Source of the DNA: Sphaerolaimus hirsutus
Lineage: Eukaryota > Nematoda > Chromadorea > Monhysterida > Sphaerolaimidae
NCBI GenBank assembly: GCA_964036195.1
Contig: OZ038452.1
Location: forward strand, 25,741,785-25,805,784
Reading direction: 5' to 3'
Length of the DNA stretch: 64,000 bases
Positions 1,954-63,895 of this stretch are shown here, in pieces (within the stretch, counting starts at the first letter, position 1; every line of letters starts with the position of its first letter). A model generated the notes under the pieces. It saw nothing but the letters and a program-made list of their open reading frames with translations, made no database searches and had not been told where the DNA came from. Position numbers and translations under genes: made by a program.

Positions 1954-4900
1954 AATTGGGACAGGGAACTCAACAAATGGCTGTGTGGTAGATTGAACTC
2001 ACTCGCTGTAGATTCGGGCACAAAGTCGGAAATCGACAATAAACTGAGTAAGTCGAATTTTACTTATACGGCCGACTCCGCACTCGGGAAATCAGGGACG
2101 TAGCCAGGACTTTTGAGCGGGGGGGGGTTGTATACGGAGCCTAGCGAACGGGGGGGGGGGTGGCGCCCCCATAAAGTTTTACCCCTGTAGTAAGGGAATG
2201 GCGCCATTCGTAGGCACCACTGGCGTTGGCATTGGCGCCAAAACAGCAGTATGTCGGTATACATATTACGGGCATATACAGCGACATAGACAGGAATTGA
2301 GACCATTTTCACTGGCTATGAGGCTGCGGAAACCGGTCAGCCGAAAGATGTTTAGGGAAAGGGAAAATGCGCGCTTGCGCGCAAATTTTTTTCAAACTGT
2401 CGGTAAATCGTCTTCTGGAAGTGCCATTTCTGGCACATTAGTTGGTCCGGCCCGGGAAAGGCGGGGCGCCACCCCGCCCCTCTGGCTACTCCCTTTCGAT
2501 TGGTTTTTGTGATAAAAAATATTTGCTCCGCGTTCGCACGTTATTTGTGACGAGGCATCATACATAAAATATTTCATATTCATCCCAAAAATTGTTGAAA
2601 CGTAATTTTTCCAAAGCTTTCATTTCAACCTTACCGCGCAGGGCAGTTCATGCAAAATGTGAGCGCACGCAGTCCCACACCAGTTCTGATAATATCCTAT
2701 GAAACGTTTCGTCTGCACGCCGCGGTGTTGCACCAAGGTTCAGTCGGCTTGGTGATTTGCGATGAGGTGTTTTTTAATTTTCCGGTGCTATTTGTGACAT
2801 TTATCTTCAATTTTTTTGTGACCGTCACTATTTTTGTCAGGGTCACCGCTTGAAAAACAGCGACAACCTGACCTACCGCGCGCTGGTGCAACTCCCAGAC
2901 TCTGTAAAATGTCAAATGTCATGCAAAGTGTCAAAAGTCATGCAAAGTGTCAAAAGTCATGGAAAATGCCCTGCAAAATATCAATTTTGCAGAGCATTTT
3001 CCATGACTTTTGACACTTCGCATGACATTTGACATTTTACAGGGTCTGGGACTGCCCCCAGGACGGCTTGGAGTGCATGAGGCGCGTGCTACTGTCCGGC
3101 ACGCCCATACAGAACGATTTGTTGGAATATTTCAGGTTTTTATTTTTTTTGTCACTTTTCGACCTTATGTTGGTGAAATATGACTGTTCACAATTTCTAC
3201 CGTAATCGATCGAATAGGTAGATTTTCATTCCCCCTTTAGTTTGGTGCAATTTGTCAACGCCGGAATCCTGGGCACGGCTGCCGAATTCCGCCGCCGCTT
3301 TGAGATTCCCATACTGAAAAGTCGCGACGCGGCCGCTACAACGCAGCAGCGGCAAATTGGCAAGGAGAAATTGAAGGTCTCGTTTTATCCGCCATTTTGT
3401 CATTTCGGTTCATTTGGTTCTTTTTCTCACATTTTTGTCACCGTCGCAGGAACTGTCGGACATTGTGCAACGCTGCGTTATACGCAGAACGAACAAATTG
3501 CTCACCAAGTATCTTCCAGTGTGTTAATTTGAAATATTTATTAATTAAACATTTATGTACCGTAAATAATTCCGTGTCGCCCGCTGATTACAGGTTAAGT
3601 ATGAGCTGATTGTGTGCTGTCGTCTGAGTGATCTGCAAGTGCAAATTTACGAGAAATTTCTGTCCTCAAAGACTGCGCAGCGGCTCTTGCGGGAAAATGA
3701 TCGAGACAGCAGTAAAGGTATGATCATTTACATACCGTATTTGCTTGAATGACCCCCTTGAATGATCCCCCCCCCCTGTCTGACGAGCGATAAAAATACC
3801 CCCTCGAATAATTCCCCCATTAGGTATATTATGCATTTGTGTATCATTTCAACACAAATTACATTGTTGTTGTTTTTGTTATGATTTATTAACACAAATT
3901 ACAAATTGTTTTTTTTGTTGATAAATCATATTTCAGTAAATGAGTTGATAAAACATGCTTGAATATTTTGACGAAATAATACCTCTCCCCCTGAATAATT
4001 ATCCATCTTGAATACATAGTTACCCCTCAAAAAAGTCTGACGAAAAAGTTATTCCCCAGGGTTCCCTAGTTTCTGCACAGTACCCATTGCTTGCGTTTGA
4101 CTGAAGCAGCCTGGCGACCAGAGGTTATCGCGCTTCAAATAATCCTCGGTGAAATTTGATGCCTACTCATCAAATGACGATAAGAAACGTTTCACGAAGG
4201 AAAATGCCTTTTCTAATTTTTTATATATTTTTTGTGAACGTGGGCACAAAATAAACACCTTCCCGGACAAGTTCACCACCCATTTTTTTATTTCACTTCA
4301 GATGCAATATCTCTGATAATGGGAGTGGTATAAACCTAATATTTGGTGGGTATATAGTCCTAACACCCAACTACTCCGTAGCAATGGGGGAAGGTGCGGC
4401 GACTTACTTCAGGGTGGGTCGCCCTATATGTAAACATTTTTTGTCGCTTTTTCGGTGTCCCAAACAAGTTCACCACCCACTTGATTAGCTACACTACTAG
4501 GGCCATATCTCCAGCTGTGAGGGCGATAGAAAGTTGTAATTTGGGGTATGTCTTGCAAACAACCCCCTCTCACAATACACCAGTGGGCGGCCACCAACGA
4601 CCCACTACAGCATGGGTCGCTGAATATAAAATTGTTCATTTTTTAAAAATAACCCAAGTCTCCCAAACAAGTTCGCCACCCAACTGCATTATAAAAAATG
4701 TTGTGAGAACAGACCTGATAACAAAATTGAATAAGATTTAGACCCTAGTTCTGCTCATAAAAATTTTTTCAATGGGGCACCCACCCATCCCATAAACAGC
4801 AGATTGATAATTTCACTTTAAACCAATTTTTTGTTTCACACTTAAAAAGTTGGTTTACAAAGTTCACTAGGGGAGGGTCTAAGGTTAAAAGTTATGTAAA

Positions 4901-7900
4901 CAACATAACCTCTTAAATGCATGCATAAGGAAATTTATTTGGGGTGAATGAAAAAGTGGAAATTTTGTCAAATTGTGTTCCTGTGAAGATGTGATTATGA
5001 CATCATAATATTCACCCCAAATAAATTTCCTTATGGAGGCATTTCAGAGGTCATGTTGTTTACGTAACTTTTAACCTTGGACCCTTCCCTAGTGAACTTT
5101 GTAAACCAACTTTTTAAGTGTGAAACAAAAAATTGGTTTAAAGTGAAATTTTCAGTCTGCTGTTTATGGGACGGGGTGGGTGCCCTACTGAAAAAAATTT
5201 AATGAGCAGAACTAGGGTTTAAATCTTATTCAATTTTATATCAAGTATGTTCTCACAACATTTTTTTATAATGCAGTTGGGTGGCAAACTTGTTTGGGAC
5301 ACTTGGGTTGTTTTTTAAAAATGAACAACTGTTAATGCAGCAACGCAGACTGTAGTGGGTCGCTGGCAGGTAGCCCCACTGGTGTATTGTAAGGGGGGTT
5401 GTTAGCAAGACATCCCCCAAATTTCAGCTTTATACCAGCCTCACAGCTGGAGATACGACCCTCGAAATGTAGTCAATCAAGTGGGTGGTGAACTTGTTTG
5501 GGACACCAAAAAAGCCAAAAAAAATTGTTGCGTATAGAGCAACCCAACCTGTAGTGAGTCGCCCCACCTCCCCTCATTGAAGCAGAGTAGGGAGGTGTTA
5601 CAACTTTATATATTCAAAGTTTCAGCTTTATAGCACCCCCATAGACGGAGATATTACATCCAAAGTGAAAAAAATAATTGGGTGGTGAACTTGTCCGGGA
5701 AGGTGTTTAAGTATGCGCGCGTGTCAACTGTCCTGTCCGTGGAGCATAAATGATGCAAGATTTTTGTGCAGGCGGCGGGGGAAACGCAAGTTTGGCAGCT
5801 ATCACCGGCCTGAAGAAGCTGTGCAACCACCCGGCCCTCGTTTACGACAAATGCGTGCAGGGCGCCGACGGCTTCGAAGGTCCCCTATTCTGAATCTTAC
5901 TGTACTTTGACTGTCACCCCCGCCACCATCCCTCCCTGTAGACTGCAAGTCGCTCTTCCCCGGCGGCTGGGATCCTAGCAGCGACCCGGCGCCGAGCCTG
6001 AGCGGCAAGTTGGCCGTGCTCGACTGCATCCTGGCGACGGCGCGCAACAGCACCTGCGTGGACGCGGCCAGCGGCGGCGTGCTCAAGGAGAAGGTCGTGC
6101 TCGTGTCCAACTACACGCAGACGCTCGACCTGTGCGGCAGGCTGTGCGACGTCAGGTCAGCTCTGGGGGCGGTCCCGGAACCTGTAGAGTGTAAAGGACC
6201 CTGTAAAATTGCAGGTGTCGTGTGAAAGACCCTGTAAAATGTCACGTGTCGCGTAAAAAACCCTGTAAAGTGTCATGTGTATTTAAATCTGATGTCCAGA
6301 AGTAAAATTGGATACGATACAATAAGATGTGGATACACACGCCCTTTTACAGGGTCTTTTACGTGACACATGACATTTTACAGTCTTTTACACTTACCGG
6401 GTCAGGTACTGCCGCCAGGTTGTCGCTCGGCCACGTGGACTTTTTTGAATTGATTCTGATGTTGCACAATCTGCAGCACTGCACATAACCTATGGCCTTT
6501 TTTAGACACTATCCTTACGTGCGTTTGGACGGCTCCATGACGATCAAGAAACGGGGCAAGATCGTAGAGAAGTTCAATGACCCAGAGGTAAATTTCCCGC
6601 TTTTTATGTGTAAATACCCCCCCCCCCACGTCGCCCCAAAACTCAGGACCCCACATTCATTTTCATGCTGAGCTCTAAGGCGGGGGGCTGCGGGCTGAAT
6701 CTGATCGGCGCCCGCCGCCTGGTCATGTTCGACCCCGATTGGAACCCTGCCAACGACGACCAGGCCATGGCGCGCATCTGGCGCGACGGGCAGAAGGGCA
6801 CCTGCTTCGTGTACAGGTTGATCGCGGTGAGCCGAGTAAATACACTTTTGTTGTGATTGGAAAATGTGCGGGTGAGAATGAAAATATGGGCATTAGTAAG
6901 TATATAAAAAGATGTTTAAAGATTACCGTATTTATTCGAATTACCCCCGCGTGTTGATCCTCCCTCGAGTTGACCCCCTTGAGCGACCTGAGGAAAAAAG
7001 ACCCCCCTCGAAATACCCCCTGTCTTGAATGATGTACATCATGTATGCTGTATATTATGTATGCTTTTTCATTACGCAATTTTCTGACGACATAAAAAAC
7101 CCTCGAATAAGCCCCCTTCGAATTAACCGCCCCCCTACAAAGTTGCTGACGAAATAATAAACCCTCTGGGGGTATTTCGACAAAAATACGGTAGTTAATT
7201 TTTGGCTACCATTTCAAAACATCATTACAAGAATTCAAATACATTCAATTTGCTCACTACCACAGACGGGCACCATAGAGGAGCGAATGCTGCAGCGGCA
7301 GGCGCACAAAAAGGCTCTCAGCTCGTGCGTGGTGGACGGCGCCCAGGACGTGGCCGTGCACTTCAGCGGCGACCAGCTGCGCGACCTGTTCAAGCTCGGC
7401 CGCGACACCGACAGCGAGACCCATGACACGTTCGTCTAGGGTTTAAATCCCGATCCCAAAAAATTTCTGGATTTGGCAGTCCCGATCCCGAAATTTCAAA
7501 AAAACGAATCCCAATACCGGTCCGGAAAATTTTCAAATCCCCGATGTCGGAAAATTGATGAAAATGACAAGAGTTCAAAAAATTACTTTTGCACGAAGAA
7601 ATGTGAATAGAAACCTCCAGTGTCCAAGTTATCACACTTTTATGGCATCCCGGCGTAATTTTTGACCATTTCTGTGACAAATCAGAGAAAAACCTTTAAT
7701 ATCAGAACACTGTCCAAAATCCCGATCCCGAAATTTCAAAAAACGTTTCCCGAACCCGGAAACTTAAAAAACCAACCCTGATCTAGGAAAGTCAATCCGG
7801 TTTGACCCCTACGTTGGTCTGATGAAAGCACAACCTAATTAAATGAGTAGATGCAGGGTATGAGCTGGGCGGGGAAAAAAACATTGTCACACGCAAGCCC

Positions 7901-9416: not shown

Positions 9417-12400
9417 TCACATCGCCCTGCTGAGGTCCTTTGCTATAATAAATCGCATTATCTCATTTGTGCCTGCCAGGTAAATTGTTTAATTGGAAAA
9501 CGATTTTCTGGCAAATAAAAAATCTACATGTTTGGCTAACCTTCAATTATTTGGTGTACTCTAGTATCTCTGAGGTATTGTTCCAAAGGGTAATCCCTCA
9601 GGACACCATACCCGCCGTATGTCTGCAGCGCCTGGTTGACAACCTGTGTTTTGGGCGGTTTTGTCAATGGGCTGATTTTCACTGGGAATGAAATCGATAA
9701 CTACCTAGTTATGTGTTTTATGAGCGAACGCTGCGCACACTGGAATTTTAGCGATATTTTGACTAAGATTGGCCGAATTTTTTACTTTCGAATGTTAAGA
9801 AGTGCCTGGCACTTAAAAATTTGGTGAAAATTGTGAGCGCGTGTCTCCAATATAATTCAGGTAGTTTTTATCCGGAACTACTAAAATTCCAGGTTCATTA
9901 CGCCAGTACCTCGAAGCAAACGTCAGTCCCATACAGCTTAGCCATAGCGCAGTAGGAAGCCGTGTAGGGCTCGCCATTCTGAAAAAGCCTGGAGTATTTT
10001 TTCCCATCATATCAAGGATTTTTATGGGCAAAAGTAACCTGTAGCGCGCTGGCCGCCGCTCTGATCATCAGTCGAGCAGTGACAATTTTGGTGGCCATCT
10101 CAGCAAACTTGAACTGAGTCCACTGCAAAATGAATGTACATAAATATTATAATTATCTTCTGCACATCTCATAAGCCCATTCACAAAACCTGAAATGCTC
10201 CAATGGGTTTGCCGAATTGCTTTCTGACCGATGCGTGCTCCATGGCCAACTGCAGTGAGGACTGCGCCGCGCCCAACGAGCATGACGCTGCGATATATTT
10301 ATCAAAAAATCATGTTCAGTTTTATTTGGCACCACACCAAATTTTTGGGCAAACCAATGTTCACGCGGCCTCCATTTATGCCTGCCATGGCAATATTGAA
10401 GCCTTCGCCGAGCTTTCCGAGCAAATTTTCTTTGGGCACTTTGCAGTTGTCGAGTGTGATAATCCTGGCTGGTTGCGACCGCCAACCCATCTGAAAATGC
10501 CATAAAAAGTAGACGTTCAAACGGAACTGGCGTCAATCTCGCAGTGAGTGCACTTTCTCAAATTTATAGTTTAAACTTGACAATAGATGAAAAATATTTA
10601 TGAAAACCCTTAACAGCAATTTTTCCCGGGAACTTAATAATTCAGTGAAATTTGTCACTTGCACATCGCAAGGCGCAGGATTGATCTAAAATAAAATATA
10701 ACGTGCGTGAAATTAAACCCACCCCCAGCGGTACCCACTAGGGTTGGGGAACCGAACCGACCCGAACCGAACCGAACCGAGAACCGAGCACTATTTTGGA
10801 ACCGCGAACCGGAACCGAGCTTGAGAACCGGAACCGAGAACCGGCACTTATACCCGGAACCGAAGTAAATACCCTGAAAGAACCGAAATTTTCTAGGAAT
10901 CTTAAAGTTTTTAAACAGGTTTTTTCAACACCTACATCTAACCCTTTAAACAGCAGCTGAACATCTTGGTGCATGTTCAGAATTGCAAAATTCATCTGTT
11001 TGCAAAATGATTGCGCGGGAGCGTGTAATTTCACATATACTCCAGCGACATTACACCTTACAATGAAATCTACCATATCCCACCCTGAATAAAAGAACAA
11101 ACATAAAAAAATTTCCTCATATTTATCAAATTGCTTTGATAAATATGATGAAATTTTTTTTATGTATGTTTGTTTATTCAGATGGGATATGGTAGATTTC
11201 ATTGTAAGGTGTAATGTCGCTGCAGTATACACATTATCACTGGTAGTAGTTTTGGTTTTGTGGCAGTTTTAACCGTAGTTGGCAAAAGTTATTTATGTTT
11301 GTACTCAAAATAATATGCGTACTCACTTGCGTACTACATAAATACATTTACGTTTCCTCCAGAAAAAAATACCAGTACTCATTTACTCGTGTACTTTTTG
11401 AAAGTACGCGAGTACAGAAAACGTATATGTTTGCTTTTACACTTTTTTTAAATACCAGTATTATTATAACAACTCTGATTTCTGCATTCTACCATGAAAT
11501 AATAAGCTGTGATATGCTCCTGTAGTAAATATGAAATATCCAACCAATGTACTTACACATGTAAACTTGGGTATATTGTTTTTCTGTTGTTTAGCCGATT
11601 ATTACCCGATACCCGGTTTGTGTAACATTATCGTAAAATGTAAAAACCTATAATATTTAAGTTAACGTTCTTATGTTCTCTTTTATATTTAATTAATTCG
11701 ACTTATCAAGATTTCATTCATATTCACATTCCTTTTCTTAACATCTTCACATTCGCCATTTAATATCTCAAGCGATGTTGTTTACAACGTGCGCTTCACA
11801 TCGCTCACATATTTAGATCTTAGTCATTGCTCACATTCCGCCACATTTCCTTGACAAGCAGTACGCATATACGCCGTCATGTTTATGTTAAGCGGCGGGC
11901 CCGCCCCGAGTGGGGGGCCGGGCCCGCGCGCCATTTCAAATGCTGTCTGGCTTGGCTCACATTTTCACTATCTTGCCAGTTTAGCTCGCTTTTCATCGGA
12001 GAAGCGAGCGGGCAAGGATTGAACTTTCACAATTGGAAATGTTGGGTAAAAATCGGAGATTAGAGCCGACCGATTGGCGCCAAACCAATCGCCATCGGTC
12101 TGGCCCTTAAAAGCCGATTTCACAGCTAAAATCGGCAGTGTTTGCAACCTCGTCAACTTCACACGAATCTCTTCCTAGGATCTAAATAAGCGCCGTAGTC
12201 ACTTTATTAAGTCGCTTGTTTTTGGTGCTAAGTTTAACGCTTGGTGCTTTAAGTCACCTCAGGGCTTTATTTCACACCTGCGCTGTTTGAGGTGCTTTAT
12301 TCACAACCGCGCCACTTAATTCTCGCCTTTTGTCGTAATTAAGTGCCCTCTTTAAATTGCCTTATTTCTCCGGTAATTAGAGCTTCTTTTACGTTTTATT

Positions 12401-15400
12401 TAAGTAATTAATTTAGTTGTAAATTAATTCCTTTGTTTACGTATAATTTTATATATATTTTATTTACATTTATTTGTTTGTATTTAAATTGTCTAAATAA
12501 AAACGTTCGTCAAAAACCTTTGGTAAACAATCTAAATTTGCTTCACACTAACTCACGTCAATTCACTTCAACTCAACTAATCACATTCGATAAAATAACG
12601 GAACGTCAACTAGAGACGACGCTTCACGTCAACTTACACTTGTTCACATTTGTCCTCTTCCTCGGTTAGGAATAGGAGCTAGTTCACAAGTCACTTCAAC
12701 AAGTTCCGTATTATTTTACATGGCGCAGCGAGCAGGGTGACTAATTAAAACTAATTGGTCACTCTAATTAAGTCGTCTCGCGCGAAATTTCATTGGAAAT
12801 TGTTTTTCACAGCCTGAGTCACACGCACGGGGTTACGGTAATACGGTTTTGGACGCAAAATCGTTAGTAGCGCGTGCATATTTACTTACGATTTTACAAG
12901 TACAAGTCACAAGCAACGAAATATTTATTTTTATTATTTTATTTCGTTCACAGCTAGCTACCACTTTGCTAATAAGCAATAAATCGATCGAACTTTGCTA
13001 TGGCCGAAGAACGCATACGCGCTCAGCGAGGCGCCGCCGCCGCCGCAGCTATGCCTGCGAGCAACGTTGATGAGTTCGACACAGCTCATCCGTTGACTCA
13101 ACATAGCCGGGCGCTGACTGGAGTGCGCAACGGAGTGCTGCGTTTCACATCCAAACCGATTCCTAAAATCGTCAAAGACGAGTCACAACCCGCCGCCGTC
13201 AACATACGCGCGGCGGAGGAAGTATTAGAATTACTTCAAGCCTACGGCTACCAAGCCGAGATGAAACGCTCGGACCTGTCTACGGCTATGGACAAATTCA
13301 CAACTACTGTCCAAGATTACATCACAAGCCTAGACAGAGACGAAGACGGAGTGGCCGAGGAGATAAAGAGCGCTAACGCAAAATTGGAGCGCGCGCTCTA
13401 CTCGGGCTCGAACAACGCGATGATGCTCATGGATGAGCTGGAATCGAGGATGGCGACCGCCCAAGCGCAAATCAAATCCGCGGAAAGGTTGATACTTTCC
13501 TTGAAAGGTCAGTCAAATGTTAATGTTGATTTAACTACTCAACCCCCTTCACAACCCCCTTACAACAATGTCAATATGGGAAGTAGTTCTCAACCTTCAC
13601 AACCGGAAACTTTATTAAAGTTACCTAAAATCGAGCTTGCTAAATATAACGGTGATCCGTTAGAATGGGCAGCTTGGTGGGAGATTTTTCGAGCTCAAAT
13701 TCACGACCGAGCTAATTTGTCAATGGGTATGAAATATACATACCTCAAGCTCAGCCTTACCGGTCCAGCAGCAGAACTGCTGGCCGGATTAAAAGGTGAT
13801 GGTCGAGATTACATCACAGCGGTCACAATGTTACAATCAAACTTTGGTGAAACGCATCGAGTACAAGCAGCTCTTTGGGATAAATTGTATTCACTCGAAA
13901 AGCCTTCGTCAAGAGGAGACTCTCTCACAAATTTCACACGAACCCTTTTGTCAACTCTCAATCAACTTAAAGAAAGGGGTGAAAGTGTTGATTCTGGTGC
14001 AGTGCTAAGAATAATTCGTGGTTATCTTCCCGATAATATTGTTCTTGCCGTCACAGAAGAACACCGGAATTCGATGCGCACCGCTGTAACCGGCGACACC
14101 GAACTCACAGTCGTCAGGTTTGTTGATGCATTAACTACCATCGCTCGTGCTCGGTTAGATGCGATGAAAACTGAACAACAAAGTTCACAATCTTCAACTG
14201 TTGTTCAGAAATCACAAAATTCATCGGTCAAAAAGCCACAAAATGGAGGTAGTTGGCAACAGCAAAAGAAAAAAGGAAATAAATCACAAAATACCTTTTC
14301 AAAACAAAAACCTATTCACAATACGGTTGCTTTTGCTGGTACCAACGCTAATGTTGGTAAATCACAAGGAAAAAATAAAAATTCCACTCAACCTCCCAGA
14401 ACTCCGGCGATCGGAGCGATTAGTCAAAAGCAGTCCTCACAACCTGCTGCTGACTTTCGCAAACCGAAATTCGAATGCTTGTTCTGCGGCATCAAAGAGC
14501 ACTACACAACCGACTGCCCTCAATACGTCACACCGAGAGAGCGCACTGAGCGGTTGCAAGCTTTGGGCGACGTGTGCACGCGTTGCACGCGCAGAGGCCA
14601 TCAAGCGGCACAGTGCACTCAACACTTGAGTTGCTACTATTGTCGCCAGATTGGTCAGCATCACGGGGCGTTCTGTCCTACCAGACAGGCACCCGCCAGG
14701 CGTCAGGTAAACAATTCACAAAATAAAGCCTTTGTCAAAACAACGAGCGCTAATTTTGTCAACGCTCAGGTAATCACAACGGGCGCGGCGTCGTCACATG
14801 CACCGCCATCGTATCCGCCTTCACACACGGAACCGATGAGCGTGTGTGTAATCCCACCGGACGAAAACGATTTCCGGTGGAGACAGAATACGCTGTACCA
14901 GCTGGACATGGACGGCCCGCTCGACATGGGCGAATGGCCGAGGCCCGCTAACGCGCAACAGGCGAGAGCTCAAGAAGAAGCCCGCAAATATCACAGCGAA
15001 AACGAGCTGTGGACGACGCTCCGTGCCAACCTCATCCAGGAAGGCACAGATATGGAGACTGTCGAGGCTAAAATCCGCGGCTTCCAGCAAAAACGGTACG
15101 AGGTGTACCCACACCTCAACCCGAACCAAATGTCATCGTCGGTGCCACTTCAACCTAGTCACAGGCCCACGGTGGAGGTGCTGAGCGCACAGGCGGGTTA
15201 CGGTAATCCCAACACCGCTACCAGGCAGCAGGCCGAACAAGAATGTGAGTTCGATTTTGCACCTATTGTTCGTTTGCAAGTGGCCCAGGCTTCGTTAATT
15301 AATAAAGACGCTGAACTAAATCGAGTCACAGACCCTTTGTTAATATTTTTTGACACAGGATGCGAATATTCATACATTAAAGCATCCGTGGCAAATGAGT

Positions 15401-18400
15401 ATAACTTTGAAAACAAAGGAGATGTTGTTCTTCAAATGAACGTGTTTGCGACAAAAACGCCTTTCACAGTCAATACGTTTTTGGTCGAGGCTGTCATGCC
15501 TATTTACAAACACGTCGACAATAAGGGCAATATGTTACAAATTCCGCTCACTTTACGTGCAGTGGATAATTTGGCAACATATGCGTGCCCACCTCCTTTG
15601 TCACAAGACGACAAAACAGTCATTTATATTGTGTACGGTGAACATGCACAAGAACAATTCGCGGAACCGCTTGAATTGACCGAAATGACTGAAGAGTTTT
15701 GTCACAAATTATGTCAACCAGATGTAGTCATTGGTCAAGACTATTATTGGAAGTTCGACATTCGACCAACAGAAATCGAACTTCCATCTGGATTGATCAT
15801 AGTTGAATCAATACTTGGATTGATGTTAGGCGGAAATGCGTCCTCACAATCATTTGTCACAACACCCGACATTTCCCCACATCAATTCATGGTTTCATGC
15901 AGTTCACATGCTTCATCAGCTGTTGCTGTTGGCCAAGAGACATTATTTCAATTTCACAGTCTCGAGTCAATAGGTATCACAGATGATCCCTTATCACATG
16001 ATGACGACATAGCTGAACAGTTAATTCTGGAATCAATTACTCTTGATCCAGAAACTGGTCGCTATAGCGTGGATTGGCCATTCAAATCAACCATTCAAGA
16101 ATTGCCAACCAACAATGCAGAAGCATTTCGTCGCTTTCTGTCACTGTTGAAACGGTTTCGAAAAGATCCCGATTTATTCGCTACATACGCGAAAGTCATC
16201 TCAGATCAACTTCACAAGGGTGTCATCGAACCCGTTTATGGTTCACAAGATGGTTTGCAAGAACATATCTTACCTCACCAACCTGTCCTCACACCTGGCA
16301 GATCGACAACATGTCGAATAGTGTATGATGGTTCTGCAGGCAAGCCAAGTCTCAATAATTGCTTATTCCGAGGCCCAGTTCTCACACCACTGGCGCTCGG
16401 ATTAATGCTTCGCTTCAGAGCCGGAAAAGTGGTGTTATTAGCAGATATTGAGAAAGCATTTTTACAAATTGCTCTTCACCCAAAATCACGCGCTTTCACA
16501 AAATTTTACTGGCTGCGTGATGACACCATTCCATCTCATGAAGACAATATTCAAATGATGCAATTCACAAGGGTGCTGTTTGGTCTCACATGCAGTCCAT
16601 CCATTTTGTCAACTGTCATCAAATATCACCTAGAAGAGGAATTAGCTCACATGCATCCGGCTGAGACCAATGAACGAATGAAACTGGAGCTGTTGCTCAA
16701 CAGCATTTACGTTGATAATTTAGTTATCAGCGTAGATGATGACAAATATGCAATACAGTTATATCGTTTAATTAAAGCTGTTTTTGCCAGAGCAAATTTC
16801 AACATGCGCGAATGGATGACAAATTCGCCTATGGTCTCGGAAAAAATCAAACCTGATGACCTCAACCCGAAAAAGTCACAATATATCAAAGTAATGGGTC
16901 TCGTTTACGATCACATTGAAGACACCATTGTGGTGCCAGCTCCCAAAAAGGATTTCACGCTCATTGTCACAGCCACACGCCGCAATTTAAACAAATTGCT
17001 GGCTTCAACATACGATCCTATTGGCGTCACAGCACCCGCGTTATTTCGGTTGAAATTTCGCGTGTCACAAATAATTCAAAGGTGCAATATCACAACCTGG
17101 GATGAACTCATCGAAGACCCAGAGGCGGATGACTTACTGGACGATTTAAAACGACATCTCTCGTCCATAAGTCAAATCAAATTCCCGCGCTCATTTCATT
17201 CTTTTGGCATCGATGTCAAGGCTGTCACACGACCATTAGAATTACATGTGTTTTGTGATGCCTCAAAAGATGGATACGCCGTTTGCGCTTATTTGCGTCA
17301 AAAAGCGATTTCACCCGACGAATATGGTTATGAAGATGACCGATATTTTAGTGGTTTTCTCACAGCTCGCACAAAATTAGCCCCACTTCCGTCAAAACAA
17401 GGTCAACCCCTCACAATCACACGCTTGGAATTGCTAGGTGTCACAATTGGTGCACAGCTCATCGATTATTTACATCACGAACTCGTTGAGCTGGGTGGAT
17501 GGAAAATTCACAGTAATTTCCTCTGGACCGATAGTACAGTTGTCATCGGCTGGCTGTATACAGCAAAGCCGCTGGCTACTTTTGTCAATAATCGGGTCAC
17601 AAAAATCCATTCACTAATGTCAAAACATTGCATTCAAATTTGCAAGGTTGCTACAAAAGACAACCCAGCCGACATCGCGTCACGGGGTTGTACTTTTGAT
17701 CAACTAATGATCGAAACAATGTGGTTCACCGGACCCACATTTTTAGCTGACCCTCTCACATCAACCATGCTTGACATTTCGCAATATCAAGCGCAACCTG
17801 TCACTGGAGAACTTGCGAAAGGCGACACTCACATCAGTCGACCTTTATATGCTGGAGCAGTAACTTCACAGCCTGTTTCACAGCCTGATTCACAACCAGC
17901 TAATGCTCTTGCACAGCAAGTACCTGTCAATTTGGACCCCAATTTGTCACAAAATGTCACTCCTCAAAATCCGTTTGTCGAAAGTCGACAACGTCACATC
18001 CCTTCAAATCCATTCGAAATCGACATTCGACGATTTTCAACATTGTCAAAATTGTTGCGTACGGTCGTATACCTGCTTCGTGTCAAAACATATTGGCTAA
18101 ATCGCTCCATGCATAAAGCTGCAAAGCGCGAAAGCGAATATTTATCAAAACCCATCACACAAGCTGATTTAAACGAAGCATTTAGACATGTATTGCGCAT
18201 TTCACAGGCAGAGGAATGTGCCAATTGCATTTCACAAGCGCAACTTGGCAAACACCACATGCTCAAATGGGACGCGTGGAATAATTTATTATATTGTGTC
18301 ACGCGTGTGTCTCACAAAGAACACCGAAACCCTTCGTTGTTTTACTACCTGCCAAAGACCGGGTGGTTAACAACGCTAGTGGTTACTCATTTTCATGAGC

Positions 18401-21400
18401 TTGCTGGTCACAGTGGCATGCTTCACACTTTAGCAGATTTACGCGAACACTGCTGGTTGTCAAGTGCCAAACAGGTAGTTGCAAAAATCTTGCGTAAATG
18501 TGTCACATGCCGCAAAGCGGAAGGAGGTCCATTCACGTTACCTGATTTTCACACATTACCTGTCACTCGAACTCAATCACAAATCAAGCCATTTCAACAT
18601 ATTGGCATTGATTATATGGGACCGTTAGTTTATTCACAGAACGGAACCCGTCACAGTCAACACATTTTGTTGCTAACATGCTTCAGTACACGCGCCATTC
18701 ATTTAGAGTCAACCAATAGTGTCTCGACAGCCGACACAGTTATGGCTCTAAATCGTTTTATTTCACGTCGAGGCATGCCGGACACGATTTGGTCCGACAA
18801 TGCCCCAGCATTCAAAAATTGCGTCAAAATGCTACCGGACGTAAAATGGCATTTTATCACAGCCAATAGTCCATGGCAGGGCGGCGTGTACGAACGCATG
18901 GTAGGTTTAGTCAAACGCTTGCTCAAAAAAGCATGCGGACGACGTTGTCTCACATGGCATGAATTTCTCACAGTCATGCTTGACGTCGAATTCTCTGTCA
19001 ATACGCGACCATTGTCATACTTGTCAAACACAGACATTGGTGCAGCGATACTGCGCCCAATACATTTTCTTTGGGGCACCCCACCACCATGTTACATGGA
19101 TGAAAAACGTGAGTTGGAACTCGATTCCACCACGATTGAACCCATGCAAAAAATTCCAAAAGAGGAATGGGAAAGAATGACAGATGGATCTTTCAACCTC
19201 ACACCTTCACAAATCGAAAAAACCTACACACTCACACCCCCACGTGTCAATGACGTCAATTGCATCGACGAAATTGCACTTAATTCTGTGCCTGAAAAGG
19301 ACAGAGATGACATCACATTACTTTGGGACCAAATTCGTCACAATCGTGAAGTGCTTTGGTATGAGTGGTCACGTCAATACATTGACCTACTCAAAGATTG
19401 AGCTAAAAATCAACGCTTGAAAAAAGGCACAATCAACGAAGCTCCCAAACGTGGTCAAGTGGTGTTAATCACAGATGATAAACAACCACGCGGCATGTGG
19501 CAAATGGGCCGCGTTCACGAAATACACGTGTCAAGCGATGGCAAAATACGTGCAGTCACAGTATTGTCAAGCAACGGTCGTCGCACACGTAGATCTCCAT
19601 CTAACCTAGTGCCTCTTGAAATCGACACAGAGGACGGTGTTGAATATAAAATCGACACTGAGGTAAAAGATGATGACAATTCACAACCTTCACCTGATAA
19701 GGGTGATGATTCACAAACAGATCAATCACATCAACAATCACAATCTTCACAGCAAGATGCAAGACGCGCAAACCCACGTCGAACATGTCGCTATACTGGC
19801 ACATATTCGTTCTGGGGAAACGTGTCGCATTTAATGGCACTTTCGTTGCTAATACAATCAAAATTAGCCAACGCACTCACATGGACAGATCAATATCACA
19901 AAACTTTCAATCTGTGCCATAAAACATGCACTGGTCACGCAATTCAACTTCCGGAAAAAGTAACATGTCACTTTCCTCAAGTTACAGCCATAGAGGATAT
20001 TGTGGTATCCATATGGACGTTGCGTGTTCAGCCGCAAACGACACCAATTTATAGATGCTTTCAACAAGAACATACTATAGTCACGTATATGAGTCTGGTG
20101 GGCGGAAAAGCTATGCTGCCACCAGAAATCATTAAAAACCACAGAGTCACAACTTACGATTGCATGATCGCTTACCAAAATAAAACTTGGAAAGGCGAAC
20201 CCTTAATAAAAATCGGTCATGCATTGTGGAGTACCAACAAATCACTTCACATCGATTATTGTTACTTTTGTCACAATTTGAGTAACACAGTAATGAACTT
20301 TCACATAGAGGAAGGTGTGGTTGCGAGTCTTGACGGAAAGAAAATTGTTTCCGAAATTCAAGACCTGTCACATTGCAACCCACAAGCCGGCTATTGTTAT
20401 GACAGTGACAATGGCGTCTCTTTATGGAATGCTACTGCCTTTAACAAGCAGTGTGCATTCCAAGAGATTGGTCAATTCGATGCGCAATATTCACAAAATC
20501 ACTACATAGTAGAAAAATTGCAAGCTGCATTTTCTGTCACATGGAGATCACAACAATTTCCAGATAATGCAGAATGCGTGCCAAAAGACGCAAAATATAT
20601 TGACCAGGGCTCGGCATTCATTCAATTTCTTCGATATCAACTTAAGAAATTGAAAAAACCTGAAACCGAAAAAGCTCCTCTTCATTTCAAACTCGCACCA
20701 GATCTTGATGTTGGTGTGTTTCACTTGCTCACAGCCCGTCAACAATACGAAGTTGACAAAATTGCACATCTAGAACAAAAACAATTTGGATCTATCTGGC
20801 AACAATTATGTCACATCCGTCAGACCCAACTAGATATAATTCATGCAATTGTCACATTCAATCCCACACTTGGCTTGCGAGCATTGCTAGGACGTCAAAA
20901 TCTCTATGCCGAATGGCATGGAGATATATTAATGTTCTGGGATTGTAAACCAGTCACAGCAGAAATTATTTATTTTCAACACGAATATAACAATACTTGT
21001 TATAAATTTCTGCCGGTCAAAGTCACAAATCACCCACATATTATGTTCGTTGCTCCTGGCACCAATGATCTGATCACACATTCACCAATAGATCATTGTC
21101 TCATGAAAGATCACAAATATTATCAATTAAATGATAATTCATGGGCCAACGAAAATGGACCAACGAATTTGCACGTCACAAAACTCCCAATCGAATTAAT
21201 TTGGGCAGGCTTGTGGAAACCATTCACACTAAATGTTTCCGGGTCACCAGGTGTAAGCATGACTGACATTGCATTCAGTATCATGGCTGCACATCATCAC
21301 TTTCAAAATTTGCAACGACTCGAACAACAAGTCACACGTTCAGTCGATTATATTGCAACAAAGTCCAACGATCCTAAAGCAGTGCAAGCATATATTGCTG

Positions 21401-38894: not shown

Positions 38895-39070
38895 GCTAAC
38901 CGGGTGCGAATCCCAGACGCTGTAAAATGTCAAATGTCAGGCAACGTGTCAAAAGTCATGGAAAATTTCGTGCAAAATGGCAAACAGTTTGCCATTTTCC
39001 AGGCCATTTTACATTACTTTTGACACTTTGCATGACATTTGACATTTTACAGGGTCTGGGACTGCCTCCA
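38895..39070. mobile_element. Solo introner-family element, intergenic
   Basis: The left end GGTGCGAATCCCAGACGCTG and the right end CAGGGTCTGGGACTGCCTCCAA, with an inverted interior (TGTCAAATGTC, GTGTCAAAAGTCATGG). Size and ends match the RAD54 copy, but the right end reads CCAAC, without an AG acceptor. No coding exon flanks it. Confidence 0.8.
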
Positions 39071-39315
39071 ACATGGTTGGTGCTATTTGAATCAAGTTAT
39101 TTCGGTGGGGGCACATTCAAGGGAATACGGTGTTTGTCTGATTTGTAATTAATAAATTGGGCTGTCGAGTGCAAACTCCACCGCGAGCAATCAGTGTTCA
39201 GCTCGGTGCGCGCGTTCATTTGCGTCAGACAGAACATTTGTGGTATTTACCGTATACTTCGTGAATGAATTCGTCCACTACCTAGTGATAATGGTCATTT
39301 TTTTCTCCCGCAATG

Positions 39316-39476
39316 GGCCTCCACACGCTAGTTGACATCGACACCTAATGTCAACTGGTGCCGATCCCGATTCAAAGCTTGCTGACGAGCCGACAATTGA
39401 CGTTCAAACGCATGCTTTGAATTGGGAACGGAACCAGTTGACATTTGGTGTCGATGTCAACTAGCGTGTATGGGGC
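39316..39476. repeat. 161-bp MITE, CACACGCTAGTTGACATCGA family
   Basis: The ends GGCCTCCACACGCTAGTTGA and CTAGCGTGTATGGGGC are inverted. The 5-bp target duplication is CAATG (39311-39315, 39477-39481). Same length as the copies at 42023-42183 and 55379-55539. Confidence 0.9.
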
Positions 39477-39574
39477 CAATGGGCGGTTAATCGCTCCGCA
39501 GATTGAATATCTTAATACCATCGATGATGTGGCGTGTGATTCGTTAAACTTTTTCCTGTTCAAAGTCTTCAAAT

Positions 39575-42017: not shown

Positions 42018-42022
42018 TTAAG

Positions 42023-42183
42023 GGCCCACACACGCTAGACGACATCGACACCAAATGTCAACTGGTGCCGATCCCGATTCAAAGCTTGCTGACGAGCTGA
42101 CGAACGACGTTCAAACCTAAGCTTTGAATTGGGAACAGAACCAGTTGACATTTGGTGTCGATGTCAACTAGCGTGTGTGGGGC
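42023..42183. repeat. 161-bp MITE, CACACGCTAG family
   Basis: The ends GGCCCACACACGCTAG and CTAGCGTGTGTGGGGC. The target duplication is TTAAG/CTAAG (one mismatch) at 42018-42022 and 42184-42188. Interior nearly identical to 39316-39476. Confidence 0.88.
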
Positions 42184-43199
42184 CTAAGGCGTGTTTGATT
42201 TGATTTGCTGTTGCGCCGAGCTCGACGCTGTGTCATAATCTTCATTTTTTTAATTTTGATGACTTCCAAGAGATCTTGTCTTTGGGTCTCAAAAAGTCAT
42301 GAAAAGTATACCCTTCGCTTAGCGCGTTCTTTGTTGTCTTCGATAGGCCACTTGTCGCTATTTTTGTCATAGCCCGGTATTAGGTCCTGCTGTGCGAGCC
42401 CGGCGTGCTCCACTCAGTGCTGTACCTATACAGCTACCCGTATAGAATAGCATGTGCAATATGGCTGCTTGCTGCGGTGTTTGATCCTTTCACGCTACTT
42501 TTTTAATCTTTTTGTCATTGAATCCGTGCCAGGAACTCATTAGGTAAATCCTCTGCGAAACACTCCAAGGCGCAGCACAAGTATAGGTAATTTATGTGCC
42601 GCTATAAATATAGTATAAAATACAAGTATGGGCCGCTTCTACAGTACATTTTTGCGGCGGCGCCGCCAGCCGACAACATTGTGTGTGATAGCGGCGTCTG
42701 AACGAACCAAGGTGCCGCTAAAAAAACTGATAAAGAACAGGGCGATAGCGTCTGGGTTTCACTTTGGGAGCGATCGTTTTCGCTTGATGTTTATGCGCAC
42801 TTACATAGATTATTTTTGAAGCTTTCAGTTTGACCTGGCCACAAGGGCTCCGCCCCCCCCCCCTCAAAAAAATACATAGTCCCAGAATTTTTTTAAACAT
42901 ATACAACAACTGTGCGCCGGGGGCCGGCGAGGGGGGGGGTGCGCGTAACCGCCCAAACACCTCACTCAATCATAGCACATCCTAGCTTTAAGCGCCCTGC
43001 TCATTACCTAGTTCGTTCGCGGCGGCAGTGGCTTAGCATTTCTTCTGCTACATACTTTTTGCCATCGCTGTTCCCGGCTACTTTTCACTTCTTATGCCCA
43101 ATGTGTCTCCTTAGCTACACTTGGAAGCGGTTTACTGTGCAGTGCATGTATTTATTTAGAAGATGTAAACTGCTGTCGCATCATGTTCGGCACCGATTT
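42184..43199. other. Intergenic, no gene recognised
   Basis: It contains poly-C/poly-G tracts (42853-42862, 42930-42938) of decayed MITE type. No exon recognised. Confidence 0.35.
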
Positions 43200-52448: not shown

Positions 52449-55400
52449 ATGAGCGCCGGCGACGTGGACGCGCCGCAGGTGCGCAGCTGCCTCGTGAAGA
52501 AAGATCGGCCAGAACAGGTGAGTCTGGGGGAATGCTTCCCTCGGTGATGGCGCCTTCCGTTCGGGTGCAATGGCGCCTTGCCCCTGGTGCCAGTCCCGGA
52601 CTCTGTAAAGTGCCCTGAAAGGTGTCAAGTGTCACGCAAAGTGTCAAAAGTCATGTAAAATGCCTGGTAAAATGGCAAACGCGTTTACATTCAAGTTATT
52701 ACGTCGTTTCTCTCCGGCGGATTTTGACGACTATCCCATCACTGCTAACTAATTCATACCTTTTTCGTGTCTTCAGGAATATGGCTTCAACCTGCACGCG
52801 GATTCCAAGCGCGGCCAGTTCCTGGGTGAGGTGGACGACTTGTCGCCCGCCGCCGTGGCCGGCCTCAAGCAGAACGACACCATACTGGCGGTCAACGGCA
52901 CGCCCGTCGCTGGTTAGATCCGCGCCATTGCGCCCACACACACTAGTTGACATCAAAATTCGTGTCAACTAAATTTTGGTTAATGTGTGATTTCAATTTT
53001 CCTATGTGATAGAGCATCGTTAATTTTAAATCGGGACACTTTATTTTTATTGTTTCTATTAAATGTGATGCTTGAAAAAATTTGTGTTATTAATTTTACA
53101 TTTAGTTCACATTGATTTGCGATGTTACGCGTTGAAAGCGTTCCCGATCGCAACTTGGTGCCTGAAAATCATCTCAGGCATGCCGCACCGGCAAGTGGTC
53201 GACGCGATCCGGTCGCACCCGTGCAGATGCGAGCTGCTGGTGGCCGACCCGCAGACCTTGCTCTGGTACAGGGAGCGCGGCTCGCCGCTCGACGCCATGG
53301 ACGCCTTCACCAACGTGGTCTACCTGCCCGCCGACAGGAGCAGAACATCGACCGGAAACTCTGGCGCGGCCAAAAAACCGGCCGACTGCGACTCGGCGTC
53401 GGTGTCCGTGTGCCGCGAGCACGCGTCGTCGCACGCGTCCACGCAGCGTAGCAACGGCGCCGTGCCGCCCGCCGTGGCTACGAGCACCATGAGACACGAG
53501 GAGCACACGCACTGCGACCTGGCGCAGCACCAGTCCAACGTGCCCGTGGTGGGTGATTTTGGGCTGCATTGTGTGACTTTGGATCATCTTGTGTGTGTAC
53601 ATCCGGTACCTGGATATTGTGGGGTTCAGCATGGAGTTTATTGAAGTGTATTTATAGTGTCGATCGCGCTAGGGTTATAAATAATAATCAATTTTTGATC
53701 AATTATCATCACGAGGGACGTAGCCAGGATTTATACGGAGCCCGGCGAAAGGGGGGCGCCCTCAAATTTTACCCCTGTAGTAGGGGAATGGCGCCATGGC
53801 GCTGGCGCCATTCGTAGGCGCCACGCCATGGCGCCACTGGCGTTGGCATTGGCGCCAAAACAGCAGTATACGTATGCATATTACACGCGGCCGCCCCCCC
53901 CCTGGCTACGTCGGCCCCGCACCTGTACGCACAAACGCCCGGCGCGCACAAACGCCTGGCACGCACAAAATGAAAGTCCGGTACGCACAAACGCCCGGTA
54001 TGCACAAAACTGTAGCTTTGTGCATGCCGCACAATGTGCGTGCCAGTCGTTTGTGCGCGCCGGTCATATGTGCGGGCGGGGCTTGTAGTGAGACATAAAT
54101 AAGTGAGACCAACGTGAGACATAAATGAGTGCGAGGGCAGAGTATCATATCCGCCGAGTATAAATAACATTGCCGCCAATCTCACTGAGTTTTTGAGTGC
54201 ATGTTGGGTGCATTCACGTGTAAGTGCGGTGCACATACACGTGTCGCGGTGGGGGGGGGGGGGAGGGGGCGTGTAAGACATAATTAACTTAGACAAATTA
54301 GTTGACAATCAAAATTTCGTCAACAGCAAAATCTGTTTTCTACATTCAAATCGCGATTATCAAAAGCTCGCGACTCACGATCCAATAGCACTCGGTCAAG
54401 ACACGCAGGTGTACTCTTGCCCATATATACGTGTACTCTTGTAATCCAGGTGCTCATGTATGGGGGGGGGTGCTCATGTATGGGGGGGTGCTCATGTATG
54501 GGGGGGCAAACACAAAGTGGGGGGGGGGTGTGTGAAAATCCCATGGCCGGTACGCACAAATGACCGGCGCGCACAAACGACTGGCACGCACAAATACCCG
54601 GTACGCACAGAGCATCAGATTTGTGCGCGCCGGGCGTTTGTGCGTGGCGGGCTCAATTTTGTGCGTGCCGGGCGTTTGTGCGCGCCGGGCGTTTGTGCGT
54701 AGGAGGCCTGGCCCGCTACGTCCTTCATCATCACTCATGTAGTTTTTGAACTTTTGTAAACGATCGTCGGAGAAAAAAAACCTTTTTTCCATCCCTACCT
54801 AGGAGCCAACCGTAGAAGCGCCCACACCGCCGCCGGTCACCGAGTTGAATTCTAGCACGACAACCCGGGACATCACGAGCAACGGCGCCGTGCCACACTC
54901 GCAGAGACTGGTGCCGCGCTTGTGCAGGTGCGTCATGATGTCGCCGCAGCGCGTTCTTGTATACCTACTAGTACGATCTAAAGTATATACCTATCGTACA
55001 TTTCGGGCGTCGGATAACTTTTTTTGAACATATTTTAAAGTCATTTAATTGATAATAAAAAGTGAACAGTGTCAAATATAAACATCCAATATCTACAAAC
55101 ATCGCATCTGATAACTAGTAGTCATTTCATATTTAAAAATACCTATCGCACACTGAAAAGCGATTCCATCCAAACCCCGCCTCACCGGTGTCGCAACAAT
55201 CTAACGCACCCCACCCGCAGATTGCGCAAGCAGCGGCAAGACGACGAGTACGGCTTCAACCTGCACGCGGAGACGCGCGACACCGGCCACTTCATCGGCG
55301 TGGTCGACCAGGTGCCAGTCGCAGACCCTGTAGAATGCCCTGTAAAATGTCAAATGTCATGTAAAATGCCCTGCAAAAGCCCCACACATACTAGTTGACA

Positions 55401-58400
55401 TCGACACCAAATGTCAACTGGTTCCGATCCCAATTCCAAGCTTGCATTTGAACGTCGTTCGTTGGCTCGTCAGCAAGCTTTGAATTGGGATCAGAACCAG
55501 TTGACATTTAGTGTCGATGTCAACTAGTGCGTGTGGGGCCAAAATGGCAACTCGGTTGCCATTTTGCAGGACATTTAACATGACTTTTGACACTGCGTGA
55601 CATTTGACATTTTACAGGGCATTTTACAGGGTCTGCGACTGCCCCAAGGGCAGCATAGCCGACCGGTCGGGGCTGCGCATCGGCCAGCGCATAGTCGGCA
55701 TCAACGGCACGCTCGTGTACAAGCAGACGGGCCACAAGCACGTGGTGGGGCTGATTAAGCGTGACCCCATGGCGACTGATTTGCTGGTGGCCACGCCGGA
55801 GGTGGATCAGCACTTTGAGCAGGCGGGTAGAGAGTTCGACTTTGCCGACTGCGAGGTGTATGAAAGAGAGGTTGGTTTTTGGTGCACTTTTTTTATTTCG
55901 GGATCGAGACCGCTGAATTCCGAAAATTATCGGGATCGGGATCGGGATGGGAAAATATCGATAATAGGCTAATGGGCATCATTCTCTGAATCACACGTGC
56001 CAGCCGCGGCAACCGCAGCCGATGCGCATAGAAGAAAAATGCCCACCAAGCCAGGGGTCTCCAGGATTTTGGCCCTCGCGGGGGCTGGATAGATAACAAA
56101 TCGCTCCTCCCGAGGGATAGATAGCTGGAAAATTTTTGTGGGGGGGGCTGGCGGGGGCACAATATATAGGCCTTTTCAAGGTTAAGAAGGCAGAAAGGGG
56201 AAAAAATCGCTAATAATCAGTTAAAAGTAGCCAAAAGTAGGTATAAAATGGCTAAAAATAGGTATATAACCGTGTATATAACCTGAAGGCACGATTTTGA
56301 AGGTGAAAAACTATAAAAAGGTGCGAAAATTGGTGATGTTGAGCTAAAATTGGGGCAAAATTTTACAAAAACCACTCCAGATATATAGATAGCTGAGCGA
56401 TTTGGGGGGGGGGGTCTTTGGGGGTAGTAGCCAAAAATTTTGCCTCAGGATAGATTGATAGCTGAGCGGCCTCCGGGATAGATAGATAGCTGGCCGATTT
56501 GGGGGGGGGCAGCCCCCCCCCCAGCCCCCCCCAGCCCCCCCCCCCGCCCTAGGAGACCCCTGCACCAAGCACCGGCAAATGTCCACAGTCTGTGTATGTA
56601 TGTCCATGTACCACTCTCAGATCATGTAAAATGTTCTGCAAAGTGTTTAAAAATAATAATTTGACATTTTACAGGGCCCGCCAATGCTAATGCATTTTGC
56701 ATGTGTTGTGCCACGGCCATTTGTCTATACTTATCAATGAATGATATTTTGATGTTTCTTGGGTGAATCAATTCCTTGTATTTCAATGAATTCGTGAGTC
56801 ACTCAACATGAAGGAATTGTAATTTTTTCCATAGCATAAATATCATTTCAATTTTTGCATTACTTACCGCAATCCGTATGGATACAGAAAAATTGGCACA
56901 AAGCCATAATACATAAATACAACAGAAAATGCCCGTTTTTTGTCTTCCCTTCCCCAGAAAACCCGCAAGGAAAAGATATGATAGTTACATGAGTGATGAT
57001 GGTTCTATCGCGCTTATCGATTCCCACTCGCCGACTGTGCACACCCTCAGATCAGTCAGGCTGCGGTTAATTGTGAGGCAGCACACCTTTTTGACCTTTA
57101 AAAAAGTGTTTTTAATCGGCACGGATCTGGAGTTTTCTTAGATGATATCAATGCCTTCAATAAGTGCAGTCAATATGTCTTCCATATGTAGGTACATAAA
57201 TGATTGCAGAATGTGTTGAAGTATGAAAAACCACTCTATTTTTAAGCCTTTTTAGCCTGTATTAACGATATTTTAAGGGAAATGTTCAAATACCTTCATG
57301 AAAGGTGATATCTATTATATATAAATATACTACCAGTTAGCAAAATACTATTATTGAACGATATATAAAATTCATCTTGATATTTTTGTATCAAGCTACT
57401 TCAAAAAATATTTCCATCCTAAAAACACCTATTAGCTATTTACACATGATAAACATAAATATAGCAGAATACAAGAGGCTTTGGACCCATTGGTTAGTGT
57501 GCGGTGCACTCATTCCCAGTAAAGAAAAAGTGGATTACGGTAGAAATTTTTGCCGGAAAGTGTCCGTTTAGGGGACTTATGTCTACTTTTGAAACTTGTG
57601 TCCTCATGGCGTCATAAGTCCAAATAAGCCAATAGGTCCAACGGCTCTTGTATTCTACTACAGTTGCATTTCAATACACACCTCCACATTACCACCTCAG
57701 GAGCTGCGCTCTAGTTCCGGCTCCTCAGCCGCATCATCATCGGTCGTCCAAGCGGACGTGCACCACGTGGCCGCCGCCGCCGCCGTGCCCGACGCCACCG
57801 ACGACACCAGATCCAAGTCGCACAGCGCCGCCAGCCCGGACAAGGGTAGCCAGGGCGGCGGGTCGAAGTCGCGTCGCAGCACTGAGAAGAGCGAGCACGT
57901 GGAGGAGAGCGTGGAGCGGCCCGAGCCGGAGCTGAGCTTTCCGCAGCCGCCGCCGCCGATTGAGGTTTGTTTTGTCCGTGTTTTGTTGCCGCGTGTTCGT
58001 TGGACTGGGTGTAATGTCGGCCATGTGGACACAAGTTGACACATGTGTCAACTGTAGGCGTAGGGTGTCAACTCTGATTTCGGCTTCACGTGTCGCAGAG
58101 CGTTCTCCAAATGCACATGCGGCAATGTTACGGCAAGTGCATTCGGAGATCGCTCTGCGACATGTGAAGCTGAAATCTGAGTTGACACAGACCAGTTGAC
58201 AGTTTGACAGACGTGTGAACTAGTGTGTGAGCCGCCAATGTGTCAATTAAGTTTGTGAGTGTAACAATGCGGCGTAAATGCGGCTTAATGTGGGCGGGTG
58301 CTGTGTAAAAGTTTTGATGAAATCATAGTGAAATCTGGCACAGGTTCTTCAAATTCTATTGTTCACCTGTCATCGTTGTCTGCATAATTACGAACTACAA

Positions 58401-63511: not shown

Positions 63512-63895
63512 GGGGCCAGTGCCGGACCCTGTGGAATGCTTTTGGTTCAAACGGGAGTGACTTTTCGAGATCGGGATTGGTATTTATAGGTTTCGAGATT
63601 CGGATTGAGGTCACAGGATCGGGATTTTGTTTAAAGTTCTTATATTCACTGATTTTCTCCGGTTTTTCGCAAAAAAAGTATAAAAACACACTTTAATGCT
63701 AGAGAATGCATTATTCAAAGGCACAATGGATATTTCCGTTCACATTTCTCAGTGAAAAAAGCTAATTTTAAAAGCTAAAAGCAGGATCGGGATCCCGTTT
63801 CAACCCTAAAAATGTCCTGTAAATTGTTAAATGTCATGCAAAGTGTGGAAAGTCATGAAAACTATCCTGAAAAATGGCAAAACGTACGTGACGAA
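63512..63895. repeat. Introner half-element split by a GGGATC MITE
   Basis: GGCCAGTGCCGGACCCTGTG begins a donor-type introner end just downstream of the exon 8 donor. A MITE (TTTGGTTCAAACGGGAGTGA to ATCCCGTTTCAACCCTA, 63541-63808) interrupts it. Introner phrases resume: AAATGTCATGCAAAGTGTGG and AAAGTCATGAAAA. Confidence 0.65.

Follow-up and report, generated by a model that had tools for sequence, protein, structure and literature searches.

The window, by which we mean the whole 64-kb stretch of DNA analysed here, contains a RAD54-like gene and an NHERF-like gene encoding a PDZ domain (Table 1). From these genes and a BEL/Pao-type retroelement described below we take the host to be an animal. 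The RAD54 protein has a best match of 65% identity, and in a tree the window sequence falls on a long branch whose neighbours, at 96/95, are nematodes and a single environmental sequence, a placement that we distrust. A search of the 64-kb window against Rfam returned no matches at gathering thresholds.

One RAD54 intron of 176 bp (2886-3061, forward strand) is made up of a foldback transposon of 173 bp and a single copy of a 3-bp target duplication. The arms of the transposon read GTGCAACTCCCAGAC on the left and GTCTGGGACTGCCCC on the right, and the two target copies differ, being CTG on the left and CAG on the right. The preliminary description had taken all 176 bp for the element and described it as one hairpin ending in the GT donor and the AG acceptor. 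The interval does begin with GT and end with AG, the canonical U2 boundary, and the DNA from 2876 to 3071 folds into one long hairpin that is far more stable than its shuffled versions (minimum free energy -77.4 kcal/mol; mean of 200 shuffles -23.7, standard deviation 2.9). The extent of the element had to be corrected, however, as the final CAG belongs to the target duplication, and the hairpin has a bulge.

After excision, 106 spliced residues from RLKNSD onward align to zebrafish RAD54 (1z3i) with zero gaps, in agreement with the earlier statement that exon sequence abuts both ends and that the spliced protein keeps the RAD54 spacing. If retained, the insert would introduce a stop and a frameshift. 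The other RAD54 introns that were modelled by eye in the window are ordinary GT-AG introns. A RAD54 intron at 3718-5771 holds a large imperfect palindrome that represents another, larger foldback element, with arms pairing 4252-4567 with 5394-5709 and 4758-4949 with 5010-5201.

Table 1. Features of the two genes and of the element copies in the window, and exonic copies outside the window with a domain match across the junction
Feature	Position or locus	Strand	Remark
RAD54-like exon, upstream	2841..2885	+	ends ..TYRAL; last codon is the left target-site copy
Left target-site copy, CTG	2883..2885	+	conserved Leu codon, end of RAD54-like exon
Foldback element, 173 bp	2886..3058	+	first two bases GT, putative donor
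Right target-site copy, CAG	3059..3061	+	putative 3' splice site
RAD54-like exon, downstream	3062..3135	+	
Diverged related element, CTG..CAG flanks	6166..6415	+	within RAD54 intron 6156-6505, ten bases past donor
Copy outside recognised exons	38904..39068	+	flanks diverged, CGG..CAA
Partial copy, left arm	52587..52680	+	first intron of NHERF-like gene; end estimated by eye
Left target-site copy, CAG	55309..55311	+	end of NHERF-like PDZ exon (..FIGVVDQ)
Second exact candidate introner of the window, 334 bp	55312..55645	+	PDZ match across junction
Right target-site copy, now AAG	55646..55648	+	putative 3' splice site, NHERF-like gene
Partial copy, no recognisable end	63806..63890	.	limits estimated by eye
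OSCP1	L075, L038		Pfam match across junction
CBS, AMPK gamma	L048		Pfam match across junction
LRR protein	L068		Pfam match across junction
7TM receptor	L103		Pfam match across junction
E1_dh, BCKDHA	L105		Pfam match across junction
Cyclin (cyclin Y)	L106		Pfam match across junction
Xanthine/uracil permease, SLC23	L107		Pfam match across junction
Cation ATPase, Na/K-ATPase	L098		Pfam match across junction
Patched	L025		Pfam match across junction
Chondroitin GalNAc-transferase	L044, L045		Pfam match across junction, each checked singly

Copies in the window and across the genome

That the element is present elsewhere in the window, as first described, is borne out by one further exact copy, one copy outside recognised exons, one diverged relative and two partial copies. 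The diverged relative lies in a RAD54 intron that may itself be an introner of greater age, with splice sites that have since moved. The exact copy, in the NHERF-like gene, has been enlarged by a different foldback element nested at 55378-55545, which almost doubles the size of the intron. This second foldback family also occurs at 39315-39482 and 42022-42189 and has ends near CACACACTAGTTGACATCGACACC; a palindrome at 619-852 resembles it in appearance only. The window also carries long open reading frames at 12976-22734, flanked by two 300-base stretches (11619-11918 and 22818-23117) that are 100% identical. These belong to an LTR retroelement, of BEL/Pao type as judged by eye, and the identical flanks indicate a recent insertion.

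A genome search with the element, put forward in the preliminary description as a check, was run in part over 348,482,957 bases in 762 contigs, and copies were collected both by similarity and by end pattern. They share the structure CWG-GTGCCANTCCCAGACCCTGTAAAA...TTTTACAGGGTCTGGGANTGCCCC-CWG, or in short form CWG-GTGCCA…TGCCCC-CWG, with variable arms. The exact left end occurs 2,588 times in the genome and a reversed-pattern control zero times. Most of these left ends (2,139; 83%) directly follow CWG, with 1,161 after CAG and 978 after CTG.

We assembled a set of copies for which both ends could be paired. Ninety loci gave 79 distinct pairs, after six were dropped as repeats of another locus and five proved unpairable (L027, L037, L052, L066, and L090). 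The 3-bp target copies are identical in 51 of the 79 (CAG/CAG in 27, CTG/CTG in 24), while the non-identical ones include ten CTG/CAG pairs and a single CAG/CTG pair. Another 20 small loci contributed 19 more pairs (L108 remained unpaired), for a total of 98 copies; L091 and L092 among them duplicate a single sequence in inverted form. A consensus 183 bp long was built from the 78 copies that measure 130-215 bp. Hairpins of the family are long and near-perfect, and the arms are unequal, with GTGCCA at the left and GGGGCA at the right.

Two homology-free tests, both blind to strand, were applied to the excised junctions. In 53 of the 98 copies, against an expectation of one third, the two flanks share their best coding frame. 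Shifting the join by one or two bases shortens the joined reading (p 0.006).

Exonic copies, empty sites, and orientation

To identify copies lying in exons, the element and one target copy were removed and the resulting reading was followed across the junction. For a copy to count as supported, the junction had to lie inside a Pfam match exceeding the curated cut-off or inside a PDB match. Fourteen exonic copies are supported in this way, comprising RAD54 (by PDB), the NHERF-like PDZ gene, and 12 outside the window (Table 1). Where a gene name goes further than its Pfam or PDB label, it reflects our own recognition. All six readings sent for PDB alignment (RAD54, BCKDHA, AMPK gamma, SLC23A1, cyclin Y, and Na/K-ATPase) are ungapped at the junction; that of BCKDHA has one gap, away from it. 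Retention of the insert would bring in at least one stop in all 14 supported copies. Eleven of these copies come from a pattern sample of 72 paired copies (L031-L110), and extrapolating that proportion to the 2,139 CWG-flanked left ends would give some 330 introns genome-wide.

Several candidates were set aside. Translated in full as part of an exon, the insert has a stop in 20 of 21 copies and a frameshift in the other (L055), and the inserts of L044, L045, and the NHERF copy likewise contain stops; this reading was rejected. Below the curated cut-off, and thus uncounted, are L055 (zinc finger, E 0.0046) and L020 (FMN_dh, E 0.0007, beginning at the junction). L100 (RsmB/F methyltransferase) has a match just under the cut-off that stays entirely to one side of the junction, and L040 has a sub-threshold match (E 0.004) to the bacterial nec1 family that we judge to be chance. 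Pfam gave no match in eight of ten extra readings of coding-looking copies, and none for L070, L082, L094, L093, L016, L058, and L099.

We conclude, with a probability of about 90%, that the RAD54 intron is an introner, that is, a non-autonomous cut-and-paste transposon (MITE) that inserted into an exon and was turned into an intron. That an insertion created the intron had been proposed in the preliminary description, and the proposal is strengthened by exon sequence adjoining the target duplication on both sides, by 13 further gene positions of the same kind, and by a paralogue with an empty site. Transposable elements do insert into introns, and the window copies at 6166-6415 (RAD54) and 52587 (NHERF) lie inside longer introns, as would be expected if an older ordinary intron had later been filled end to end by the transposon. 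Yet in all 14 supported cases exon codons directly flank the target copies at either side, and no remnant of an intron is present. Moreover, a paralogue of the AMPK-gamma gene on contig C2, whose protein is 81% identical, is uninterrupted at the element site; its DNA is ungapped through the junction and has TTG opposite the CTG of the interrupted copy. Five paralogous stretches of SLC23 (46-57% identical) also cross the site uninterrupted. The filling of an older intron, largely contradicted by the empty paralogue, is therefore scarcely credible.

Orientation gives indirect support for splicing of the exonic copies. In all 14 supported copies the GT arm lies 5' on the coding strand. Within the pattern sample, junction-spanning Pfam matches were obtained for 11 of 55 canonical-strand readings and for none of 49 opposite-strand readings (Fisher p 0.0007), the two sets having been chosen differently: of the canonical readings, 25 were selected by eye out of a list covering both strands and the rest by codon score; the opposite-strand set holds a single reading for every copy whose frame was sufficiently long, less one duplicate. 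The 30 further canonical-strand readings gave three Pfam matches, two of them spanning the junction (L044 and L045) and the third being L100. On the opposite strand, a weak RING match (E 0.005) was judged to be chance, and a longer reading of L097 matched GDT1 on one side only, past the junction. Inspected by eye, the L097 element seems to occupy an ordinary intron that has a GT donor and a TTTACAG acceptor of its own.

The single orientation is the outcome predicted by a GT-dependent process, whereas it should be indifferent if the exonic copies were unspliced, harmful, or recent insertions in polymorphic alleles, redundant paralogues, or pseudogenes. Such insertions would fit the uninterrupted paralogues that accompany three of the copies flanked by CTG on both sides, in BCKDHA (46% identical), AMPK gamma, and SLC23. 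However, the flanking exon frames are open (checked for BCKDHA, AMPK gamma, SLC23, and OSCP1), and for OSCP1, which carries two exonic copies, the genome search at E 0.001 found no second gene. We regard unspliced insertions as very improbable as a general account of the exonic copies. Because three of the seven CTG..CTG genes have uninterrupted paralogues, tolerance of a broken copy or poor removal is possible in those three.

Two pairs of neighbouring copies lie on contig C1. In the OSCP1-like gene (about 3.592 Mb), L038 and L075 are exact candidate introners 0.8 kb apart that differ in ending with CTG and CAG, and they make a natural pair for a comparison of splicing. In the chondroitin GalNAc-transferase-like gene (about 5.420 Mb), L044 and L045, 1 kb apart, are flanked by CTG..CAG and CTG..CTG, respectively.

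Acceptor classes and the proposed mechanism

The supported copies fall into two equal classes by their right end. Seven end in AG (L001, which is RAD54, L068, L075, L098, L106, L044, and the NHERF copy). In the other seven (L038, L048, L103, L105, L107, L025, and L045) the right target copy is CTG, so that there is no AG at the exact boundary; the right arm of L048 has also lost one base.

The sequences suggest a simple division of labour. Insertion at a CWG trinucleotide duplicates the target, as can be seen from the sequence itself. With a left arm that begins with GT, CWG-GTGCCA would serve as the 5' splice site, and with a right arm that ends in the pyrimidine-rich TGCCCC, a following CAG copy would complete CCCC-CAG as the 3' splice site. 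The element would thus carry the donor and borrow the acceptor from duplicated host bases, and its fold-back arms may bring both splice sites together. Because the second target copy supplies the AG acceptor, removal of an intron made of the element plus one target copy would restore exactly the coding sequence that preceded the insertion. At a CTG target the second copy provides TG instead, and a T-to-A change there would be favoured by selection, leading to CTG..CAG copies such as that of RAD54.

The distribution of target copies points in the same direction. Among the 98 paired copies, 12 are flanked by CTG..CAG and one by CAG..CTG, and genome-wide CAG makes up a larger share of right ends (945 of 1590) than of left ends (1161 of 2139; p 0.002). 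This bias and this excess suggest that AG is favoured at the acceptor. Identity to the consensus, compared as a test of age, is 0.906 for CTG..CAG and 0.925 for CTG..CTG copies, a difference that is suggestive but not significant (p 0.07). The picture suggested is one of insertion at CAG and CTG alike, with CTG sites improved later at the acceptor. The RAD54 copy, which keeps the CTG leucine codon on the left and has CAG on the right, looks like a CTG site that has been improved to AG.

Several routes are conceivable for removal of the CTG-ended copies. In the range scanned, no combination of a GT or GC donor with an AG acceptor leaves the protein of any of the seven unchanged; the nearest inner AG lies 18-19 nt upstream, and the smallest in-frame alternatives change the length by 18-21 nt. 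Other splice sites could be in use, mostly a GC donor two bases in (GGT-GCC) with the inner acceptor TTACAG, adding seven residues. Five of the seven CTG..CTG copies offer such a solution in frame (+21 nt), and AMPK gamma has a GT-AG solution of +18 nt. But GGT-GCC is a poor splice donor, the seven extra residues would fall inside conserved domains, and for OSCP1 the range scanned contains no in-frame pair at all, which makes alternative sites an unlikely explanation for the class.

The copies could also be taken out of the mRNA by a pathway that recognises the hairpin and needs no splice sites, in the manner of SOS splicing, which reportedly acts on DNA transposons in the cells of worms and humans. 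The long near-perfect hairpins and the non-AG boundaries would suit such a pathway, and a similar proposal exists for Amoebophrya, where introners show inverted as well as direct repeats and use non-canonical sites (PMC7789003). Either orientation would then be expected, yet the GT arm is 5' in all seven supported CTG..CTG copies (two-sided chance 0.016), and we consider removal of this kind improbable.

A bolder possibility, somewhat less likely than not, gives a role to the TG itself. The family may seed introns that are born with a TG acceptor at CTG targets, about half of the new exonic insertions being removed as GT..TG, perhaps with help from the hairpin, and a single T-to-A change then giving GT..AG; this is a possibility that we would put forward rather than assert. 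If true, both the birth and the maturation of introns could be observed inside one genome.

Relation to known introners and transposons

The origin of new introns is a long-standing question. Introners were reportedly first described in Micromonas and Aureococcus, and they have rarely been reported in animals. The present family shows similarity that reaches both putative splice boundaries, with the same ends at 14 supported gene positions. Removal of its exonic insertions leaves coding length unchanged, as seen in the PDB alignments and the empty paralogue.

A survey of 3,325 genomes found introners in 175, and among animals and land plants in two groups only, both of them animal (Gozashti et al., 2022; PMC9860276). 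Also established are introners with terminal inverted repeats and target-site duplications in which one splice site is carried and the other borrowed. Like the DNA-transposon introners of that survey, our elements form a repeated family whose exonic copies would be complete introns with terminal inverted repeats and short target-site duplications, and like those of Chrysochromulina they appear to carry the 5' site and co-opt the 3' site from the duplication. They differ from those introners in their animal host, the CWG duplication, the unequal arms (GTGCCA and GGGGCA), the one orientation in supported exons, and the class at CTG targets that lacks AG.

Two further systems share some of these features. 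Hairpin introners of Amoebophrya (PMC7789003) are also derived from repeats and have inverted repeats and direct repeats of 3-5 nt at their boundaries, and Fritillaria (PMC13326754) has non-canonical introns. In contrast to both, the other RAD54 introns seen here by eye are GT-AG, and the deviation concerns the 3' dinucleotide only and CTG targets only. The GT..TG boundary is itself known from human U2 introns, where, in the study PMC2374985, TG acceptors occur as alternatives beside a nearby AG and constitutive ones were not found; here, TG is the sole acceptor that would give the exact protein. A search of the open-access literature yielded nothing relevant on SOS splicing, on introners combined with non-AG boundaries, or on introners combined with Harbinger elements and animals.

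What is added here is a CWG-targeting, NuwaI-like source, a high-copy animal family, a single direction in supported exons, and the TG class. The simple rule outlined above could turn any exonic CAG into an intron site for a family present in thousands of copies. The direction is apparently imposed by splicing, and the intermediate stages, CTG..CTG and CTG..CAG, make acceptor maturation testable.

Among the PHIS (PIF/Harbinger-like) transposons, the NuwaI group is recognised by its CWG target; the study that describes it (PMC4482050) met the group in animals only, with terminal inverted repeats that usually begin with GGG. The family described here shares with NuwaI the 3-bp CWG target-site duplication and the animal host. 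Read inward, its right arm is GGGGCAG, which starts with GGGG, and its left arm is GTGCCAN. It differs in being non-autonomous, in its length of about 180 bp, and in a left arm starting with GTG. On contig C1, the one contig compared, with left ends covered to near 31.8 Mb of 34.0 Mb, none of the listed matches to DDE_Tnp_4, the Harbinger-type transposase, comes by eye closer than about 3 kb to any of the exact ends listed. Because no transposase was seen beside the ends there, the likely NuwaI affiliation rests on target-site duplication, host, and arm sequence. Genome-wide there are at least 163 DDE_Tnp_4 matches, spread over many contigs, and most of those listed contain several in-frame TGA codons, which may reflect introns or decay.
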